DNA of 64,000 bases from Turnera subulata (taxonomy: Eukaryota > Streptophyta > Magnoliopsida > Malpighiales > Passifloraceae): the NCBI GenBank assembly GCA_028386065.3, contig JAKUCV010001894.1, forward strand, positions 124,001 to 188,000. The letters are read 5' to 3'. Shown in pieces: positions 2,552 to 57,314 of the stretch. The notes below the pieces were generated by a model. The model did no database searches. It was not told the DNA's origin and saw only the letters and a program-made list of their open reading frames with translations. Position numbers and translations under genes: made by a program. How positions within the stretch are numbered: the first letter of the stretch is position 1; each line of letters opens with the position of its first letter.

Positions 2552-4107
2552 TGTTAGTGTAATATGCCCCAAAGCCAATCATTGGATGATTGTACATAGT
2601 CATGTAAATACATTAAGGTTATTCCAATGAATATGTTTACGAGATAAATGCTTGCACATATTTATAACCCTAGAATATTTTATATTCTTAAATGTCCCTA
2701 GTCGATTATTATTATGGATGGGTTGTAATAATAAATTAAGACTAGCGTATGTTGAGAATTATATGAGATATGAATTCTACATATGGGTACAAGTTAGAGA
2801 ACTTGCGGACTGGACCGACCCACATAAGAACCCTACATGGAACGTTATATGATTGTCATTAGTGGTTCTTATATGTATTGTCCTTAGACCTGAGATCATC
2901 AAGGTTCCCAACATATGAGTCGTATACTTTAATATTATTCCTAGTCACTCGTAACTGAGTAGACGTAAGGGTAATCATTGGGTATATGACGTAATGTGTA
3001 GTGGGTTTTGATCGATCAAGATGGGATTCATCCAACCCATATAATGGGTATATTATTAGATGGGCCTTTTGATAGGGTTGAACTGCTAAATGCGTGGCCA
3101 CGCTCGGATTATGTGAGATGGTGATGTCATGAGTATCCGGTTTTACACAGTTAACTCGGGGATCAGGAAACTAAGATTAAACATATACGAGATTGACGTT
3201 TTCCATGTCTCGTGTTTAATCTTGACAATGGGACGAAAGGAGGATGACATGTTTCCGAGGCATAATGAATCAGTATTGATCTTGTTGTTTGGGTAACAAT
3301 GATGTGTTGCTAGACACCGCTCATTGTTTATAATTGTAAAATGAGATTTTACAATTATTGCCAAACGTTACAAGTGCCTACAGGGTCACACACTTAGAAC
3401 TGTTGATTCGAGCTGGTGGTGGAACTATGGTTGGACCGTGGTTCGACCAGATGGGTGGACCACTGTTGAACCTTGGTTGGACCATGGTTGGACTAGGTCG
3501 TTTTGGGCTGATTTAGTTCACTAATTATCAGAATTATTGAACCAAAATTAATGCCATATGATGTGTAACCCCATTAATGCTTAGTGGAGCATCCATTAAT
3601 GCTTAGTGGAGCAATAAGACATAGTGGAGACATGAATAGGCTAAAAGTATAATCATGATGGTTAATGCATGATGATGTTGGCCATTGTCTCATTAATCTA
3701 TGCATTAATTGTGTGTATAAATAGGGCTTGATAATCAGATTATCAACACACACAACATTCACACACAATTTAGATTACACCATTCTTTGAGAAAGAAAGA
3801 AGCACATATAAACACTAATTTCTAGCTCTCGAAAATTTTGCAGCTAGCACTGCGGTTCGGGAGTGCTCGGGTTAGTGATCGTGAGACGGTTGCTAGCAGT
3901 CATCAACGGTTCGTGCGGATACCGTAGAGGAGCCGGATTTCTTGTCGGGTTCTTGCTGATTCTACACTACAGTTGGGTGAAAGACCTCAACCAAGCAAGG
4001 TACGAAAAATTGTTATTCGGTTTAGTTAGCTTCACTTAGATCCTCCAAGAGTACCGGGTCTTTCCGCTACGTTTTGATTGTCAAGTTTGCATGCCCGGTT
4101 ACTATCA
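2552..4107 (+). repeat. 3' LTR of the Angela-like element
   Basis: Follows a purine tract, AAGTGGGAGAT (2541-2551), and begins TGTTAGTG. Matching sequence recurs in reverse at 16087-17580, 22857-24389 and 55775-57314. A TATA box (TATAAATAGGG) lies near 3716. Upstream of it, 3417-3495 holds degenerate 11-bp repeats of GGTTGGACC type. The right end is approximate. Confidence 0.88.
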
Positions 4108-7446: not shown

Positions 7447-9078
7447 TGTGAATACCCGACCCAAAATCACTTGGGCCTATTCACCTAATCCTTTCACCTT
7501 CTTCTTCGGGTCAATCCCATAACATTGGAGTCGCCACCCAAGTTTTATTAAGGACAAAACTTGGGAAAAACCATAATATGACTCCTTTAGGCTACATGGT
7601 CATGGTGAACCAAAGTTATGCATCGGGGGTTCGTCACAGATGGGAAGGTGTTAGGCACCCATCCGTGTTGGTTGGAGACTATGTGCAATTATGAAATGCA
7701 AGTGTGCCTGGTGCAAGCGTGCAGGTGTGGAAAGTAAAGAGAAGGGGAGAAGAAGAAGAATTGGGTTGCATCCCGTTGTAAGACCGAGATCACCTACGTA
7801 CCCGAGTGATCGGGGTCAAAGCCACGTAGTTCTAAACATGGCACAAATCAGCCACTTACATCATCAAAAGCATCAGCATATAATCAACAAAGATCAATCA
7901 AAAGAGAGGGTTTAGTGTTACCTCTTGTAGCCCTCCTATAGCTCCTTGTAATAGGTTGAGTTCTACACCCACCTTCTTGCCGTTTCTAAGCTCTGTGGTT
8001 GATCCTCTCCTTGACCTCTCCGAGCTGAACCACTGTTAATGTCTCCAACGAAAATTCTCCAGAGTTTCTACCTAAGAAATGGGTTTCTAGGCTTGAAGGA
8101 GTAGCATTTCTCCAAGCACTCAAGGCTTATGGGTGTGTATGTTAGAAAAAATGTGTGTCCTTTGAAATATGAATGGGGTGTCCTATTTATAGTGTTCTGG
8201 TGAGTGCAGGGGCATGGACCTCTTAATGATGAAAATTTTGGCTGAAAATCTGGGCCAAAACCGTGTAGAATCGAATTAGGAATGAAAATCGGCAAAAAAT
8301 CAGTTTCTGGGCGCCCATGTTCGCCAGGACCTGGCGGACATCCCAGAGGACCTGGCGGTCATCCCTGCATGTCCGCCAGGACCTGGCGGTCATCCCTACA
8401 TGTCTGCCACGACCTGGCGGTCATCCCGAGATGGCCGCCCGGCACCGTCGGTTTCACGCGTTCTTTCTTTTTTTTCAGCCCCCAATCCCCCAAATTTCTC
8501 CCTGATTTGATCCTACCGCATAATTAACTCCTAATTAACCCAGAATAACTCCATTACTTGATAATTACTCCTCTAAATCATTCCATAACTAATTGATTAC
8601 ACGTTAACACCCATTCAAGCCAAAATCATACCAAAAACACAAAATCTAATTAAATAATGATTTAACTCTGATATTCCGCAAAAATTAGAGCTAAAATTAA
8701 CCTGCAAGAAATGTGTTAATGTGCTACTCAAACTCTGGAGGATTCATTAACTTTTGCCCTTTAACCCATTCTCACCCCAAAGATAAATCATCTCATTAAA
8801 ATTGGATTAAAGATAGATAAAAGGCCCAAGTAATGAAATAAACACATTTTAGTGTAAATAAACCTTTGTATATATTTTTACCCTAAGATTAAATCTTCTC
8901 ATTAATCCTAGTATTCCAATATACAAGGGCTCAAATCACCAAAATCTATTATTTCCACTAAAATAAATTATTGACGTGGCCTACTCCTAGGACCAAATCA
9001 TCTCATTAATCCTAAGTTCCAACATGTTCAAAATCCAATTTTAGTAGAAAAGACATGGGTCAAATTTGGGTGTTCACA
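7447..9078 (-). repeat. 3' LTR of the LARD
   Basis: 1632 bp, with TGTGAA/TTCACA inverted ends. On the minus strand a TATA box CTATAAATAGG lies at about 8183-8192. GC-rich palindromic repeats at 8323-8436 lie 130-250 bases upstream of it. Very similar to 13733-15360. Confidence 0.92.
8323..8436 (-). promoter_or_regulatory. U3 palindromic repeats GCCAGGACCTGGC
   Basis: Four near copies of CCGCCAGGACCTGGCGGTCAT, the core being a near-perfect 15-17 base palindrome, occur about every 33 bases upstream of the minus-strand TATA box. The partner LTR has them at 14607-14725. Position suggests enhancer-like elements; that is inference. Confidence 0.55.
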
Positions 9079-9092
9079 GATGCCCCTCGTTG
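9079..9092 (-). other. Polypurine tract of the LARD
   Basis: On the minus strand CAACGAGGGGCATC abuts the 3' LTR start. It parallels the PPT at 5962-5977. Confidence 0.75.
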
Positions 9093-13732: not shown

Positions 13733-15360
13733 TGTGAATACCCGACCCAAAATCACTTGGGCCTATTCACCAAATCCTTTCACCTTCTTCTTCGGGTCAA
13801 TCCCATAACAATAGAGTCGCCACCCAAGTTTTATTAAGGACAGAACTTGGGAAAAACCTTAATATGACTCCTTTAGGCTACATGGTCCTGGCCGACCAAA
13901 GTTGTGGGATCGGGGGTTTGTCACAGATGGGAAGGTGTTAGGCACCCATCCGTGTTGGGTCGAGACTATGTGCAATTATGTAATACAAGTGTTCCTGGTG
14001 CAACTGTGCAGGTGTAGAAAGTAAAGAGAAGGGGAGAAAAAGAAGATTTGGCTTGCATCCCATTGTAAGACCGAGATTACCTACTTACCCGAGTGATCGG
14101 GGTCAAAGCCACGTAGTTCTAAACGTGGCACATCGACCACTTACATCATCAAAAGCATCAGCATATAATCAACAAAGATCAATCAAAAGAGAGGGTTTAG
14201 TGTTACCTCATGTAGCCATCCTCTAGCTCCTTGCTATGGGTTGAGTTCTACACCAACTTCTTGCCGTTTCTAAGCTCTATAGTTGATCCTCTTCTTGACC
14301 TCTCCTTGGTGAACCACTGCTAATGTCTCCCACGAAAATCCTCCAGAGTTTCTACCTAAGAAATGGGTTTCTAGGCTTGGAGGAGTAGAGTTTCTCTAAG
14401 CACTCAAGGCTAATGCGTGTGTATGTCAGAAAAAATGTCTGTCCAATGAAATGTGAATGGGGTGCCCTATTTATAGTGTTGTGGGTGAGTGCAGGGGCGT
14501 GGACCTCTTAATGATGAAGATCTTGGCTGAAAATCTGGGCCAAAACTGTGTAGAATCGAATTTGGAATGAAAATCGGCAAAAAATCAGTTTCTGGAAGCC
14601 CATGTCCGCCAGAACCTGGCGGTCATCCCTAAGGACCTGGCGGTCGTCCCTGCATGTCCGCCAGGACCTTGCAGTCATCCCTACAAATATGAGAGGACCT
14701 GGCGGTCATCTCGAGATGGCCGCCAGACACCTTCGGTTCCACGCGTTCTTTTTTTTTCAGCCCCTAATCCCCCAAATTTCTCCCTGAGTTGATCCTACCG
14801 CGTAAGTAACCCATAATTAACCCAGAGTCACTCCATTACTTGGTGATTACTCCTCTAAATCATTCCATAACTAATTGATTAAACATCAACATCCATTCAA
14901 GCCAAAATCATACCAGAAACACAAAATCTAATTAGATGATGATTTTACTCTGATTTTCCACGAAAATCATAGCTAAAATTAACCTGCAAGAAATGTGTTA
15001 ATGGGCTAATCAAGCTCTGGAGGATTCATTAACTTGGGCCCTTTAACCCATCCTCAACCCAAAGATAAATCATCTCACTAAAATTGGATTAAAGATAGAT
15101 AAAAGGCCCAAGTAATGAAATAAACACATTTTATTGTAAATAAACCTTATTATATATTTTTACCCTAAGATTAAATCATCTCATTAATCCTAATATTCCA
15201 ATATACACGGGCTCAAATCACCAAAACGTATTATTTCCACTAAAATAAATTCTTGACGTGTCTTACTCCTAGGACCAAATCATCTCATTAATCCTAAGTT
15301 CCAACATGTTCAAAATCCAATTTTAGTAGAGAATACATGGGTTAAATTTGGGTGTTCACA
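13733..15360 (-). repeat. 5' LTR of the LARD
   Basis: 1628 bp, collinear with 7447-9078 with scattered substitutions and small indels, including changes inside the palindromic U3 repeats (14607-14725). The minus-strand TATA box is at about 14467-14476 (CTATTTATAG on the plus strand). Confidence 0.92.
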
Positions 15361-15365
15361 GTTGG
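15361..15365. repeat. TSD GTTGG, right copy
   Basis: Exact repeat of 7442-7446. Confidence 0.9.
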
Positions 15366-16081: not shown

Positions 16082-16086
16082 TTTGG
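16082..16086. repeat. TSD TTTGG, left copy
   Basis: Exact match to 24390-24394, flanking the copia element between them. Confidence 0.92.
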
Positions 16087-17580
16087 TGTAAGTAACCGGG
16101 TCATGCAATTTGACAATCAGATGCAACTAAATGCGCAGCGGAAATCCCGGTATTCAAGGAGGATCCGTGTGAAACAGAGTAAACCGAGTTATAGAAAACA
16201 TACCTGGTTCGGTTGAGGTCTTTCACTCAACTGAAGAACCGAATCAGCAAGAGCCGGAAAGCAATCCCGCTCCTCTACGGTATCCACACGAACCGTGATA
16301 ACTAGTTGGAATCGTCACACGATCACCAACCCAAGCACCCCCGAACTGATGTGCTAGTAGCAGGTTTCGGAAGCTAAAGTTTGTGGTGTTTTCTTCTTTC
16401 TCAAAGAAGGTGTGTAGTCTGAAAACTCAAGAACACTCAAGACTCTCTCAAGCTCTATCCTCTAAAATTTTTCAGACTCAAAGTGCTGAAGACCCAAGGC
16501 ATAATCAGAATGTGCTTAGTCTAATCCCACTCACAAAAGCAAGGGACAAAGTGGCCAACACCTTTGGCCAACATGATTAGCTTTTAGCTAATGATGTCTC
16601 CACTAATGTCTAAATGGGATTACACATCACCATGCACTGATTATGGTTCAATAAATCAGACATTTAGTGAACCAAACCAGCCCAAAACAACCCTAGTCCA
16701 ACCACGGTCCAACCACAAGCGCAAATACCTGGTTCAACCACGGTCTAACCATGGTTCAACCACCAGCTCGAATCAACAGCTCTAAGTGTGTGACCATGTA
16801 GGCATTTGTAGCATTCGAAAATAATTGTAAACTCATTTACAGTTATAAGCAAAGAGCGACGTCTAGCAACACATCATTGTTACCCGAACGACAAGATCAG
16901 TACTGATTCAATATGCCTCGGAAACATGTCATCGTCCCTTCGTCCCATCATCAAGATTAAACACGAGACATGGAATATGTCATTCTCGCATATGTTCAAT
17001 CTCGGTTTCTTGATCCTCGAGTTAACCGCGTAAAACCTATGATATCACCATACCATAATCCGAGCATGGCCATGCATTTCCGGTTCAACTCTATCAAGAA
17101 ACCATCCGATCATATACCTGTTACATGGGTTGGACGAATCCCCACTAGATCATACAAAACCCACTACACATTTATCATATACCCAATGATTACACTATGG
17201 TCTACTCATTTATGAAATAGCCAAGAGTAATATCAAAGTATACGACTCATAAGTTGGGAACCTTGATGATCTCAGGTCTAAGGACAATACATATAAGAAC
17301 CGCTATCGACAAACATATAACGTTCCATGTAGCGTTCTTATGTGGGTCGGTCCAGTCCACAAGTTCTCTAACTTGTACCCGTATGTAAAATTCATATCAC
17401 ATATAAATTCTCAACATAGTTAATCGACTAGGGACATTTAAGAATATATAATATATTCTAGGGTTATAAATATGTGCAAGCGTTTTTCTCCTAAACGATA
17501 TTTATTGGAATAACCTTAATGTGTATACATGACTACAAATAAACATCCATTGATTGGCTTTTGGGCATATTACACTAACA
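16087..17580 (-). repeat. 3' LTR of the copia element
   Basis: 1494 bp, plus-strand ends TGTAAGTAACC...ATTACACTAACA. Compared with the 5' LTR it lacks a block of about 42 bases near 17417 and has two fewer 11-bp repeats (16695-16763). It keeps a short stretch near 16785-16820 that the 5' LTR has lost. Confidence 0.93.
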
Positions 17581-17591
17581 ATCTCCCACTT
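17581..17591 (-). other. Polypurine tract
   Basis: The minus strand reads AAGTGGGAGAT immediately before the LTR start, identical to 2541-2551. Confidence 0.85.
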
Positions 17592-20208: not shown

Positions 20209-21264
20209 CTAAACCAAACCACTCGGTAAGGTAAGATAGTAAGTTCCTATGACTAATGCAGCAACTCTTGCTCCATTTCCCACACGCAGGTCCATCTTAC
20301 CCTTTGCCAATCCCCTACTATTTCTCAGTTCCTTCACATTTACACAAATGTGAGAACCACATCCGGTATCTAATACCCATGATGCTGAGATAGAGATATT
20401 AGCTTCTATAACGAAAATACCAGAAGCGGAAGTCTTACTTCCCTTCTGCTTCTTTACCTCTTCAAGGTAAACAGGGCTGTTAAGTTTCCAATGACCGGAC
20501 TTCCTGCAGTGGATGCATTCACCTTCCTTTGCAACACCACCTTTGGGTTTCAGCACTTGTGAAGAAGATGCACCAAACTTCTTGGCAAATTTCTTCACCT
20601 TTCCTTTACCTTTTCCCTTGCTACTTCCAACCATCATAATGCTGTTGGATTTATTTGCCTTCATCTGTTGCTCAGCTATTCTCAACATATTGAGCAACTC
20701 AGACAAGGATTTGTCAAGATGATTCATATTGAAGCTTATGACAAATTGGCTGTAACTATCCGGCAACGATTGCAGGACTAGATCAACAGCCAACTCCTTC
20801 TGCAAAGGAAAACCAAGACCCTCAAGACTCTCAATGTATCCAATCATTTTGAGCATATGAGGTCTCACGGGTGATGACTCTGCCATCCTGCATTGGAACA
20901 ATGCCTTAGAGGTCTCATACCTCTCATGCCCTGCTTGCTCATCAAAAAAAGCATCTTTAGGTGTTTGATCATATCGAACGCCCCCATGTTCTCATGTTGC
21001 TTCTGAAGCTAAGAGTCCATGGTTATAAGCATAAGGCATGATGCATCCAATGCATCATCAAGATGCTTCTTGTAAGCATCCCTTCCTGCCCTAGAAGCAC
21101 TAGGCGCGGTTCATTTGGAACAGGCCCTTCGAGGACATACAATTTATTTTTTCTTGATTGAGGACTATCCTCAAATTACGATACCATTTTAGAAAGTTAT
21201 TCCCATTCAGCTTTTCCTTCTAAAGGACCGATCGCGGTGATATTGTGATAGTGTTTTGTGCCAT
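20209..21264 (-). pseudogene. gag: copia gag and protease, broken
   Basis: Gag packages the element RNA and protease cuts the polyprotein. A minus-strand ATG at 21264 begins MAQNTITISP. Text of the usual NFLKWYRNLRIVL type follows after an in-frame stop, and a T-run frameshift lies near 20945. The better part (20901-20209) has a gag helix region (MLKMIGYIESLEGLGFPLQ), a basic linker and a damaged zinc knuckle CIHCRKSGHWKLNSP, whose last cysteine is missing. The protease motif is LDTGCGSH. There is no single open frame. Confidence 0.85.
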
Positions 21265-22842
21265 GGAAATTCTACAACAATGATCTACTCACACAAATAA
21301 GAGTCATGCATACTAATCATTTAACAAGGAATTCTATTAAATGATACTCCTACAATATAAATCAAGACAATCATATAAGTAGGCCAAGATCCACATTTCT
21401 CTACTAGATAAGTCCGCTTTGGCTGATCGCTTACTTCATAGCTATTTAGGTAGACAACTCTCGTCAATTACATCTCATGTAACTCTTGGATAGTTGAGTG
21501 AACAACACTTGTTCTTGTCTTTCTCATAGACATTACTCAACTCCTTGCCTCTAAGTCCTTAATCCTATTAAGATGACCTAATTAAGTCCAAACCCACAAT
21601 AAGCAATTCAGATATTACAGTTATCCAGTCGCACCTTACTAGGATAAACATTGGCACCTTGCTTTGGCAAAAACTACCAATTGTTGATCTTAACCTTGAT
21701 GAGTGCTTATCATGGAAGGCAACACAAGAATAACTTAATATTTTCATCAACATACTATTCCAATACATTACATGCATGTTCTTGATGAATGTATTTTGAT
21801 GTTTGTAAATTTGGAAACCAAAATTACAAGTGAACATCGATGTTTTGAGAATCTGATTCTCCCAACTACTTGGCAGCACTCAGTATTTCGGCCGTATCCA
21901 GAGCTGTAGAGCTTGGTTTGGTGCAATATTGGTGTCCCTGGAAAGCTAAGAAGTAGTTCTACAACTTTTCTGTTCAGGCCAGACACCAATTCGGCCTTCT
22001 TCTACCCCGAATTCGTTGTTGAAGTCACTGGATTCCAGAACATCGATGTTTAACCCTTAAACATCGATGTTGACAATCAAACATCAATGTTGGAGGTTGC
22101 CGAACCCTCAGAACATCGATGTTGACAATCAAACATCGATGTTTGAGGTTGCCGAGCCTCAGAACATTGATGTTTACGATCAAACATCGATGTTTGAGGT
22201 TGGCGAATGCATAGAACATCGATGTTAACACTTAAACATCGATGTTTGAACTTCTGGAACCCAACAACATCGATGTTGGAATCTTGAACATCGTTGTTAT
22301 GAGAGTTCTGGAACTTCAAACCAATTTGGCCGAGCTCAAATAACATCAATGTTGTAACTCTTAACATCGATGTTGTTGAGTGTTTTGCATGAGAACATCG
22401 ATGTTGGTCACACAACATCGATGTTATGAACATTCGGCCGAAGCTAAACTTCATCAGAACATCGATGTTTTTCACACAACACCGATGTTGTGAAGGTTCG
22501 GCCAAGGCTAAACTTCATGCTAACATCGATGTTGGTCTCACCAACATCGATGTTATGGCCTAGCTGTACTAGAACGACAATCGTTCTATACACAAACCGA
22601 CACTCGATTTTTCTTAGTCGAACTCTTCGACGTACTGCCGCGAACATCTTGATTGATATCTCATACCAATCAAGTACTTGTTGTCAAAACAATTTTAACA
22701 AAAACACAACATCAACATGTACAAAAATCATTTAGCATATCACATATACAAAATGAATTCCAGCATATCACATATACTAGCATGTTCATACTATATCACA
22801 TATAACATATGAACACATAATTCGGTTTAGCGTTTCACAAAA
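21265..22842 (-). other. 1.6-kb untranslated leader of the copia element
   Basis: Lies between the primer binding site and gag. It is non-coding apart from by-product frames. Holds the palindrome array at 22039-22554 and one isolated copy at 21833-21844. Near 22680-22800 there are A/T-rich direct repeats around CATATCACATATA. Confidence 0.7.
22039..22554. repeat. Phased array of 19 AACATCGATGTT palindromes
   Basis: Fourteen perfect copies and five single-mismatch copies of the 12-base palindrome AACATCGATGTT. Start positions: 22039, 22060, 22080, 22112, 22132, 22163, 22183, 22215, 22235, 22266, 22287, 22342, 22363, 22394, 22414, 22458, 22478, 22522, 22543. Steps alternate between 20-21 and 31-32 (three larger: 44, 44, 55), so most copies form doublets. 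Each copy is self-complementary, and doublets can fold as 12-bp hairpins with 8-9 base loops. One extra perfect copy is at 21833. Function unknown. Confidence 0.95.
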
Positions 22843-22855
22843 GGCTCCGCTACCA
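22843..22855 (-). other. Primer binding site (variant Met type)
   Basis: The minus strand reads TGGTAGCGGAGCC, one base from the 5' LTR. It differs at two positions from the usual copia TGGTATCAGAGC (initiator tRNA-Met). The same variant is at 32559-32571 and 59124-59135. Confidence 0.8.
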
Positions 22856-22856
22856 C

Positions 22857-24389
22857 TGCAAGTAACCGGGTCATGCAATTTGACAATCAAATGCAACTAA
22901 ATGCGCAGCGGAAATCCTGGTACTCAAGGAGGATCCATGTGAAACAGAGTAAACCGAGTTATAGAAAACATACCTGGTTCGGTTGAGGTCTTTCACTCAA
23001 CTAAAGAACCGAATCAGTAAGAGCCGGACAGCAATCCCGCTCCTCTACGGTATCCACACGAACCGTGATAACTAGTTGGAATCGTCACACGATCACCAAC
23101 CCGAGCACCCCCGAACTGATGTGCTAGCAGCACGTTTCGGAAGCTAGAGTTTGTGGTGTTTTCTTCTTTCTCAAAGAAGGTGTGTAGTCTGAAAACTCAA
23201 GAACACTCAAGACTCTCTCAAGCTCTATCCTCTAAAATTTTTCAGACTCAAAGTGATGAAGACCCAAGGCATAATTAGAATATGCTTAGTCTATTCCCAC
23301 TCACAAAAGCAAGGGACAAAGTGGCCAACACCTTTGGCCAACATGATTAGCTTTTAGCTAATGATGTCTCCACTAATGTCTTAATGGGATTACACATCAC
23401 CATGCACAGATTATGGTTCAATAAATCAGACATTGAGTGAACCAAACAAGCCCAAAACGACCCTGGTCCAACCACAGTCCAACCACGTTCCAACTATGGT
23501 CCAACCACAAGCTCAAATACCTGGTTCAACCACGGTCTAACCATGGTTCAACCACCAGCTCGAATCATCGGCTCTAACTTCCGGAAATAATTGTAAACTC
23601 ATTTACAATTATAAGCAAAGAGCGGCGTCTAGCAACACATCATTGCTACCCGAACGACAAGATCAGTACTGATTCAAAATGCGTCGGAAACATGTCATCG
23701 TCCCTTCGTCCCATCACCAAGATTAAACACGAGACATGGAATTTGTCAATCTTGCATATGTTCAATCTCGGTTTCTTGATCCTCGAGTTAACCGCGTAAA
23801 ACGGATACCTATGATATCACCATAACATAATCCGAGCATGGCCAAGCATTTCCGGTTCAACTCTATCAAGAAACCATCTGATAATATACCCGTTATATGG
23901 GTTGGACGAATCCCCTCTGGATCATACAAAACCCACTACACATTTATCATATACCCAATGATTACACTAAGGTCTACTCATTTACGAAATAGCCAAGAGT
24001 AATATCAAAGTATACGACTCATAAGTTGGGAACCTTGATGATCTCAGGTCTAACGACAATACGTATAAGAACCGCTATCGACCAACATATAACGTTCCAT
24101 CTAGCGTTCTTATGTGGGTCGGTCCAGTCCACAAGTTCTCTAACTTGTACCCATATGTAGAATTCATATCACATATAAATTCTCAATATACGCTAGTCTT
24201 AATTTGTTATTACAACCCATCCATAATAATAATCGACTAGGGACATTTAAGAATATATAATATATTCTAGGGTTATAAATATGTGCAAACGTTTATCTCA
24301 TAAACGATATTTATTGGAATAACCTTAATGTGTATACATGACTACAAATAAACATCCATTGATTGGCTTTTGGGCATATTACACTAACA
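22857..24389 (-). repeat. 5' LTR of the copia element
   Basis: 1533 bp. Contains 11-bp tandem repeats of GGTCCAACCAC (23465-23553, four units, a 14-base spacer, then three units). A deletion around 23576 removes sequence present in the 3' LTR. Confidence 0.93.
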
Positions 24390-24394
24390 TTTGG
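24390..24394. repeat. TSD TTTGG, right copy
   Basis: Exact match to 16082-16086. Confidence 0.92.
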
Positions 24395-35839: not shown

Positions 35840-36122
35840 TGCACCAATGGTGCCCTAATGGCGAATCAATGGCACCTCAATAGGCCTACAGACTGCTAAA
35901 AGCGCACCAATGGCACACCAATAGCGCACCAATGGCGCCCCAGTAGCGCACCAATTGGCCTACCGAGGGCTAAAAGCGCCCCAATGGCGCCCTAATCGCG
36001 CACCAATGGAGCTTCAATAGCACACCAATAGGTCTAACAAGGGCTAAAAGCGCACCGATGGCGAACCAATGGCGCACCAACTGGCCTACCGAGGGAAAAA
36101 CGCGCACCAATGGCTCACCAAT
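35840..36122. repeat. GCGCACCAATGGCGC minisatellite
   Basis: Built from many copies of a 10-12 base unit (GCGCACCAATG, GCGCCCCAATG). A higher-order marker, GGGCTAAAAGCGC, recurs near 35893, 35967, 36043 and 36090, at spacings of about 50-75. Ends exactly where the LTR at 36123 begins. Confidence 0.8.
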
Positions 36123-36570
36123 TGTCACACCACTTGCACAACAAGCCTAGAAGGGTGCGGAATTCTCTAGAATCCTATGGAACCATCTAGGCTACTCTTG
36201 TGGATAAGCTTGTGTAGATATTTTCCATAGAACATTCTAGGCCTTGTAATCTTAACCCATAGAACGTGGAACATTCTAATGGCTTGATCCTAGCAATCCA
36301 TTAAGGAGGTGGGATTTGCCTATATAAAGTGGGGGGCTCCTCATTTGTAGGCATCATACACTCTTTGTACACACACTGGAGCTTGTATACTTGTGGTAGG
36401 TAATACAATTGGGTTCATTCCTTCCAAACACTTGCTTGTTCACTTTTTTCTTTTCACTTGTTCTTTCTCCAAGTGCTTTCATTGGTGCAAGGCTGACTTA
36501 GGCTTGAGTTTGAGTGAAAATTGCCTAAGTATTGCACGGGCTAGCATTCCAAAACTCTAAGTCTGTGACA
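36123..36570 (+). repeat. 5' LTR of the gypsy fragment
   Basis: Ends form a perfect 7-bp inverted repeat, TGTCACA...TGTGACA. A TATA box TATATAAAGTGGG lies near 36321. A PBS-like TTGGTAATGGAAC starts at 36572, a poor match to known plant PBS types. Confidence 0.75.
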
Positions 36571-55774: not shown

Positions 55775-57314
55775 TGTAAGTAACCGAGCATGCAATCTTG
55801 ACAATCAAAATGCAGCAGAAAGACCCGGTACTCATGGAGGATCCAAGTGACGCTAACTAAACCGAATAACAATTTTTTGTACCTTGCTTGGTTAAGGTTT
55901 TTCACCCAACTGTAGTGTAGAATCAGCAAGAACCCGACAAGAAATCCGACTCCTCTACGGTATCCACATGAACCGTCGATGTCCAGCCAGCAATCGTCTC
56001 ACGATCACCAACCCGAGCACTCCCGAACCGTAGTGCTAGCTGCAGAATTTTCGAAAGCTAGAAACTAGAGAGTGTTTGATGTGTTTTTCTCAAGTGTGAA
56101 GAGTGTGCTAAGCATTGCTTGGTCTGAAAATCTGATCAAACCTTCACCCTATTTATACACACTTGAAATGCATAGTTTATTAAGTCATTGGCCAACACAA
56201 TCATGTCTTATCCTTCATGATTATGTTTCCACTTTGACTTAATGCTCCACTAAGCATTAATTATATATATCATCATATATAGGAATACACATCATATGGC
56301 ACAAATTCTGGTTCAATAATTCTGATAATTTGTGAACCAAATCAGCCCAAAACGACCCGGTCCAACCATGGTTCAACCATGGTCAAACCACTAGCTCAAT
56401 ACCCTGGTCCAACCAACTGGTCGAACTACAGTCCAACCGTTGTTCAACCACCAGCTCGAATCAACAGTTCTGAGTGTGTGACCCTGTAGGCACTTGTAAC
56501 GTTTGGCAATAATTGTAAACTCATTTACAATTATAAACAATTAGCGGCGTCTAGCAACACATCATTGCTACCCAAATGACAAGATCAGTACTGATTCATT
56601 ATGCCACGGAAACATGTCATCGTCCTTTCGTCCCATTATCAAGATCAAACACGAGACATGGAATATGTCAATCTCGCATATGTTTGATCCAACGTTTCTT
56701 GATCCTCGAGTTAACTGAGTAAAACGGATACTAATGTTATCACCATACCACATAATCCGAGCATGGCCATGCATTTACAGTTCAACTATATCAAGGGGCC
56801 CTTCTGATAATATACCCGTTATAAGGGTTGGAAGAATCCTATCTTGATCATACAAAACCCACTACACACTCATCATATACCCAATGATTACACTAAGTTC
56901 TACTCAGTTACGAATAGCCAAGAGTAATATCAAAGTATATGACTCACATGTTGGGAACCTTGATGATCTCAGGTCTAAGGACAATACATATAAGAACCAC
57001 AAATGACAATTATATAACGTTCCATGTAGTGTTCTTATGTTGGGTCAGTCCAGACCACAAGTTCTCTAACTTGTACCCGTATGTAGAATTCATTTCTCAT
57101 ATAATTCTCAACATACGCTAGTCTTAATTTATTATTACAACCCATCCATAATAATAATAATCAACTAGGGACATTTAGGAATATAAAATATTCTAGGGTT
57201 ATAAATATGTGCAAGCGTTTATCTCATAAACATATTTATTGGAATAACCTTAATGTATTTACATGACTATGTACAATCATCCATTGATTGGCTTTTGGGC
57301 ATATTACACTAATA
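55775..57314 (-). repeat. Solo LTR, Angela-like family
   Basis: 1540 bp, plus-strand TGTAAGTAACC...ATTACACTAATA, homologous to the LTRs at 2552, 16087 and 22857. No internal region is present, and TSD-like GACGG/GATGG flank it. This is the product expected from recombination between the two LTRs of a full element. The plus-strand terminal CA is mutated to TA. Contains 11-bp CCAACCAT repeats at 56359-56460. Confidence 0.92.

Follow-up and report, generated by a model that had tools for sequence, protein, structure and literature searches.

In the 64-kb window of Turnera subulata DNA analysed here, to which all positions refer, a 12-base palindrome, AACATCGATGTT, is repeated many times within one short stretch. 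The question raised by this locus is what such an array represents: a row of protein-binding sites in the DNA, a row of hairpins in the RNA, or a trace of the way in which the repeats multiplied and were kept alike.

The array is real and non-random. A scan allowing one mismatch finds 19 copies of AACATCGATGTT, 14 of them perfect and five with a single mismatch, arranged as nine doublets and one extra copy. The 18 start-to-start steps are 20 (six times), 21 (four), 31 (three), 32 (two), 44 (two) and 55 bases (once). When two mismatches are allowed, the window contains 22 matches, against a mean of 3.8 and a maximum of 8 in 100 dinucleotide shuffles, and of the perfect palindromes 8, 10, 12 or 14 bases long, none but this one is found more than three times in any 1 kb of the 64 kb. 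A preliminary description of this DNA had given the same number of copies, perfect copies and doublets, and the same preference for steps of 20–21 or 31–32 bases with exceptions of 44, 44 and 55, all of which are confirmed. The recurring inner spacer that it mentioned is present as well, exactly as GACAATCA twice and as TACGATCA once among the 10 inner spacers. It did not include a perfect, isolated 20th copy or the minus-strand orientation of the element in which the array lies.

This element is a complete but decayed retrotransposon, whose gag and pol pieces are interrupted by stops (Table 1). Its long terminal repeats (LTRs), of 1533 and 1494 bp, have TG...CA ends and are flanked by a 5-bp target duplication, TTTGG; an alignment of 1468 bases shows 57 differences between them (K2P 0.040). 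On the minus strand the domains follow in the order PF14223, PF13976 with PF00665, and PF07727; these come from the three of five scanned pieces that scored above the cut-off, while the fourth matched PF25597 below it and the fifth had no match. The LTR ends with the 5-bp duplication, the copia-type gag and the position of the integrase before the reverse transcriptase identify a Ty1/copia element, which we take, from general likeness, to belong perhaps to an Angela/BARE-like lineage. The integrase piece has 4460 protein matches at E ≤ 0.001, and the hosts among the 120 listed include Hibiscus, Linum, Trifolium and Cinchona; four bacterial-named rows among those 120 were taken as contamination. 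The LTR, target duplication and domain evidence thus agree with the earlier placement of the array in a copia leader.

Table 1. Positions of the palindrome array, its parts and the features of the host element within the 64-kb window
Feature	Position	Strand	Basis or remark
Array, 19 copies of AACATCGATGTT, nine doublets and one extra copy	22039..22554	.	mismatch scan
20th copy, perfect and isolated, not in phase with the array	21833..21844	.	scan, phase test
Part of the array in ~52-base tandem units, one doublet each	22060..22278	-	repeat analysis
Part of the array in ~64-base tandem units, one doublet each	22388..22557	-	repeat analysis
5' LTR	22857..24389	-	LTR pair alignment
3' LTR	16087..17580	-	LTR pair alignment
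Target site duplication TTTGG, left copy	16082..16086	.	
Target site duplication TTTGG, right copy	24390..24394	.	
Untranslated leader, 1592 nt (~1.6 kb)	21265..22856	-	3' end set by the presumed gag ATG, 21262-21264
Presumed primer binding site TGGTAGCGGAGC	22844..22855	-	putative
gag piece, Retrotran_gag_2, PF14223	20209..20991	-	domain scan
GAG-pre-integrase and integrase piece, PF13976, PF00665	19501..20202	-	domain scan
Reverse transcriptase piece, RVT_2, PF07727	18580..18966	-	domain scan
Terminal polypurine tract AGTGGGAG, then AT/TG	17583..17590	-	
TGGTTGRACCA near-palindromes in the 5' LTR, 7 units at ≤3 mismatches	23464..23554	-	11-base steps, one of 25

All 20 copies of AACATCGATGTT lie inside the leader and none in the LTRs. 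The array occupies leader nucleotides 303–818, and the lone copy begins at nucleotide 1013; a 15-base dyad, GAGAATC/GATTCTC around one base (21847–21861), adjoins the latter. Outside the array the leader holds seven short dyads, including the lone copy, against a mean of 1.2 in shuffled sequence, and none of 500 shuffles reached seven. Dyads are not scarce elsewhere in the element, with six in 1.5 kb of the 5' LTR and 12 in 3.7 kb of the pol region. The observed/expected ratio of CpG is 1.13 in the array, 0.62 when the perfect palindromes are removed and 0.64 in the remaining leader. The leader also contains 55 ATGs, including one in every perfect 12-mer, so that plain scanning by ribosomes to gag is unlikely. 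A coding repeat was considered and rejected, since not all of the steps are divisible by three and a search with a 145-amino-acid frame that crosses the array gave no relative (70 candidates, none at E ≤ 10).

The five variant copies can be set against the decay of the element itself. Over the 20 copies, three of 20 central CpGs and two of 200 other bases have changed, while between the LTRs 15 of 57 CpGs and 42 of 1354 other bases differ, gapped columns being left out. Assuming equal mutation of leader and LTR, 2.6 CpG changes and 3.1 others are expected over the copies since insertion, in line with the three and two seen; a rougher LTR count (18 of 60 CpGs) gave 3.0 and 2.9 and the same conclusion. 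At the 95% upper limit, about 2.0% of the 240 bases could already have differed before the insertion. The mismatches are therefore explained by decay, with nothing further needed, and within error all of the approximately 20 copies were probably identical when the element inserted.

This identity is confined to the palindromes. The mean pairwise identity is 96% among the 19 array copies, but only 41% among the six inner spacers of eight bases and 33% among the four of nine bases, single comparisons ranging from 0 to 100%. Over the 20 copies the information content is 1.5–2.0 bits at all 12 positions and falls to 0.10 and 0.49 at the adjoining bases; conservation ends at the edges of the 12-mer. 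At the same time, tandem units of 52 and 64 bases, each with one doublet, are visible, which indicates that the array grew at least partly through duplication of doublet-holding units.

The duplications bear directly on the helical phasing, which the preliminary description had presented as a property of the array. At 10.5 bp per turn the 19 positions give a phase coherence (resultant length R) of 0.726. With 5000 draws each, P is 0.026 for a model with four free step classes and 0.10 for one with three free linker classes, and a simpler test with four step classes gives 0.045. The lone copy lies at -165 degrees from the mean phase of the array, nearly in antiphase. Copying of 52- and 64-base units leaves few independent spacings, and the doublet spacing of 20–21 bases could have been inherited from one ancestral doublet. 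The tandem units account for much of the spacing pattern. Helical phasing is suggestive but becomes weak when tandem duplication is taken into account (P = 0.03–0.10), and, with the lone copy out of phase, it is not upheld as an established property.

Could recent tandem duplication by itself account for the whole array? In that case one doublet would have been copied shortly before the insertion and nothing would have kept the copies alike, and the visible units, with the spacing that they explain, are what speaks for it. However, the spacers of these units are much more diverged than their palindromes: between adjacent doublets, 30 of 170 aligned spacer letters differ, with a further 149 gap columns, compared to nine of 192 palindrome letters. 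Neighbouring comparisons share units, so that the Fisher P of 7e-5 gives no more than a rough indication. Decay after insertion accounts for the palindrome differences, and this explanation is very unlikely. Another reading is homogenisation without function, where template switching between inverted copies, in reverse transcription or in replication, again and again rewrites the arms as perfect palindromes and the spacers, having no partner, drift. Perfect stems are reported to arise and to be preserved through template switching (in the available text of PMC8794818), and it would account both for the exactness of some 20 redundant copies and for the identity that stops at the dyad edges. Acting within doublets, it would nevertheless let different doublets drift to differing palindromes, but all of them share one 12-mer; the two-sided changes expected from it are also absent among the variant copies, which carry five single changes and no compensated variation. 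We consider homogenisation a live though unlikely rival, clearly more probable than duplication alone.

An array of RNA structures deserves somewhat more attention, but it too is rather unlikely to be the main function. Here each doublet would form a 12-bp hairpin and copies would also pair between RNA molecules, serving dimerisation, packaging, a bypass of the upstream ATGs or exposure to small-RNA silencing. The array folds far better than its dinucleotide shuffles (z = -14, 100 shuffles), most palindromes pairing into stems with one another, and the spacers add some structure compared to mononucleotide shuffles (z = -3.5 with the palindromes left unpaired and -2.7 with them kept, 100 each). 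The 55 leader ATGs would also fit such a role, as would the compensatory arm changes of a second array in the window, described below. BARE, another plant copia element, is said in the available text to have dimerisation and packaging signals (PMC3735527), and in maize, small RNAs accumulate on the palindrome clusters of Sireviruses according to the portion of PMC10760457 at hand, which makes a role at the RNA level a live alternative. On the other hand, repeated palindromes of any kind fold well, and in folding the two strands behave alike, the antisense strand reaching -237.5 kcal/mol and the sense strand -234 kcal/mol, so that the good folding of the array does not point to the transcript. 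The extension of some hairpins by CCTCA/TGAGG flanks, claimed earlier, is exact in two doublets out of nine and is not general: the mean complementarity of a doublet's own flanks is 4.3, against 4.0 for mismatched flanks, which is at chance level (permutation P = 0.28). Moreover, the stems are invariant rather than covarying and, as read from the alignment of the copies, two of the five variant changes abolish base pairing in the sense RNA at their position and three leave G-U pairs.

The best explanation, to which we assign a probability of about 0.45, is that the array is a cluster of predicted sites for a protein that recognizes AACATCGATGTT as a symmetric dimer, acting as an enhancer or an insulator-like block in the leader. 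The suggestion of an array for a dimeric DNA-binding protein is retained from the preliminary description as the best reading on account of the exact dyad, which is as expected for the site of a dimer, the conservation limited by the edges of the 12-mer and the lack of compensated variation. Its helical component is weakened, and the weak phasing lends less favour to cooperative binding. Two further points sit less easily with binding sites: with some twenty redundant sites, each expected to be under weak selection, full identity exceeds what simple selection predicts, and the slight RNA structure of the spacers is not needed if the sites act purely as DNA.

According to the proposed dimer-binding mechanism, a symmetric dimer, presumably of a host factor, would bind each 12-mer in the transcribed leader, and the bound array would enhance or insulate the element's own transcription. 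The doublet-holding units multiplied in part through tandem duplication; selection on binding, rather than mere copying, may have kept the 12-mers identical. The CpG at the centre of each site would probably make binding sensitive to methylation. If a protein does bind the array, the exact 12-bp site offers a bait for finding a plant factor recruited by retrotransposons; if none binds, the locus becomes a clean test case for homogenisation by template switching.

The focal array is accompanied by other dyad arrays in the window. Near-palindromes of the type TGGTTGRACCA are found in the 5' LTR of the element (Table 1), and the 3' LTR contains five such units at up to three mismatches (16694–16762). 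At up to two mismatches, each of four out of four related LTRs in the window has six or seven copies, compared to means of 0.3–0.4 and a largest value of 3 in 100 shuffles each; the units are also present in the related LTRs at 2552–4103 and 55775–57312. Compared with the focal 5' LTR, two of the four related LTRs reach only 83–84% identity over roughly 1 kb and 74–75% over a further 300 bases. The LTR at 55775–57312, from a related family, stands alone inside another copia element, with target flanks that nearly match (GACGG/GATGG). Neither this LTR nor the one at 2552–4103, which has a pol piece at the edge of the window, comes with a leader, and the analysis covers one leader of the family.

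A second LTR element, with LTRs at 7447–9082 and 13733–15364 that are 91.6% identical, carries an array of 45 copies of GGGCAGCTATGCCC at up to four mismatches, 14 of them exact, between 9183 and 10786. The steps are unequal, mostly 27–46 bases, and the unit has arms GGGCA/TGCCC around a GCTA centre. Among its copies there are six both-sided Watson-Crick changes and 30 one-sided ones, whereas shuffles give 1.26 both-sided changes (P = 0.0002). Judged by these patterns of substitution, the array of the second element looks like a hairpin array and the focal one more like a series of binding sites. Together, the arrays of the focal LTR and of the second element indicate that dyad arrays recur in LTR elements of the window. 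The LTRs of the second element also contain inverted GGCGG/CCGCC motifs (8347–8439 and approximately 14596–14740) that call to mind the CGG-CCG core of the motifs of Sireviruses, and a tandem array with ACCAATGGCGC-like units is found at 35841–36132.

Outside the plant DNA, a search for relatives of the element in viral contigs gave 22 pattern matches, none of which was confirmed. In one IMG/VR contig (L001:6504–6537), two copies of GGGAACATCGATGTTCCC at a distance of 22 bases may form an operator pair. Bacterial contigs in which two exact copies lie near each other (L002–L006) were set aside as unrelated, as their listed steps of 21 or 42 bases probably reflect coding repeats of seven residues; four of them (L003–L006), from the bacterial bin Kiruna_bin-04925, have 21-base repeats holding GACATCGATGTT or AACATCGATGTT. 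In open-access full texts the string AACATCGATGTT occurs in two papers, whose subjects are the glucocorticoid receptor and protein-DNA modelling.

The preliminary description knew of no retrotransposon feature like this one, a claim that does not stand, since two described systems come close. The palindromic repeated motifs (RMs) of Sireviruses number at least eight and up to 32 per element, are 66–100% alike with diverged flanks, form CpG islands, and are found in the LTR and, in elements that have env, mostly ahead of that gene; the available text describes classic copia elements as lacking them (Bousios et al. 2010, PMC2829016). The focal array resembles them in having at least eight dyad copies, here 20, with diverged flanks in a non-coding part of a plant Ty1/copia element, but it is placed in the 5' leader and not in the LTR or the surroundings of env. 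All RMs except that of Tnd-1, which is ACAATCGATTGT in eight copies, have a CGG-CCG core (available text of PMC2829016). By inspection, the focal 12-mer lacks this core and shares ATCGAT with ACAATCGATTGT.

The element itself is not a Sirevirus. Sireviruses are described (in the text at hand of PMC2829016) by a polypurine tract (PPT) octamer with several copies in the linker, an LTR junction that reads CA/ATTGG followed by the primer binding site (PBS) TATCAGAGC, and AT/TG after the PPT. The element contains no copy of the octamers AGGGGGAG or AGGGGGAA and none of TATCAGAGC, its junction being CA/GTGGTAGCGGAGC; membership was rejected on the octamer and the junction, although the AT/TG attachment site is present after its tract. 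At distances of some 0.8 and 1.6 kb, two further copies of the terminal tract AGTGGGAG lie upstream of the 3' LTR. Similar ATCGAT-cored palindromes may also be carried by soybean. A PPT substitution of the AGTGGGAG type is named as common in classic elements (PMC2829016, available text).

Among other leaders, that of the Drosophila copia element has an enhancer of repeated short motifs, some inverted, which lies just after the 5' LTR and raises transcription there, but it consists of about five octamers in 150 bp with no long exact palindrome in the part described (PMC4717254). The tandem repeats of Retand, between pol and the 3' LTR, likewise form family-specific arrays in regions of plant LTR elements that are not translated; unlike the focal array they are at the other end of a Ty3/gypsy element, and palindromic units are unmentioned in the available passages (PMC11963269). 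BARE is similar as a plant Ty1/copia element with an untranslated leader, and the word palindrome is absent from its available text (PMC3735527). No description of a leader array of this kind in a plant copia element was met in the open-access literature searched.

The gypsy insulator of Drosophila, with 12 Su(Hw) sites in 340 bp, is similar in that an LTR retrotransposon carries, in its 5'-untranslated region, a cluster of sites with a 12-bp consensus and short variable spacers (PMC2374998, available text). It differs in that the insect element belongs to Ty3/gypsy, its spacers are described as AT-rich and the Su(Hw) consensus is non-palindromic and unrelated (same source); by inspection the focal 12-mer does not match (TC)(AG)(TC)TGCATA(CT)(TC)(TC). 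An insulator of this type keeps an enhancer from acting on a promoter when it lies between the two. It is conceivable, if speculative, that the focal array is a plant counterpart of this insulator, with about twenty identical sites for a dimeric plant protein and intervening DNA free to change, and that together with the dyad arrays of the focal LTR and the second element it would make up a regulatory layer that is general among plant LTR retrotransposons other than Sireviruses. By analogy, the array extends a feature type already described for Sireviruses, a related group of plant retrotransposons: palindromic RMs are presented in the available text as specific to that group (PMC2829016), while a comparable array is found here in the leader of an element that lacks two of its diagnostic features.
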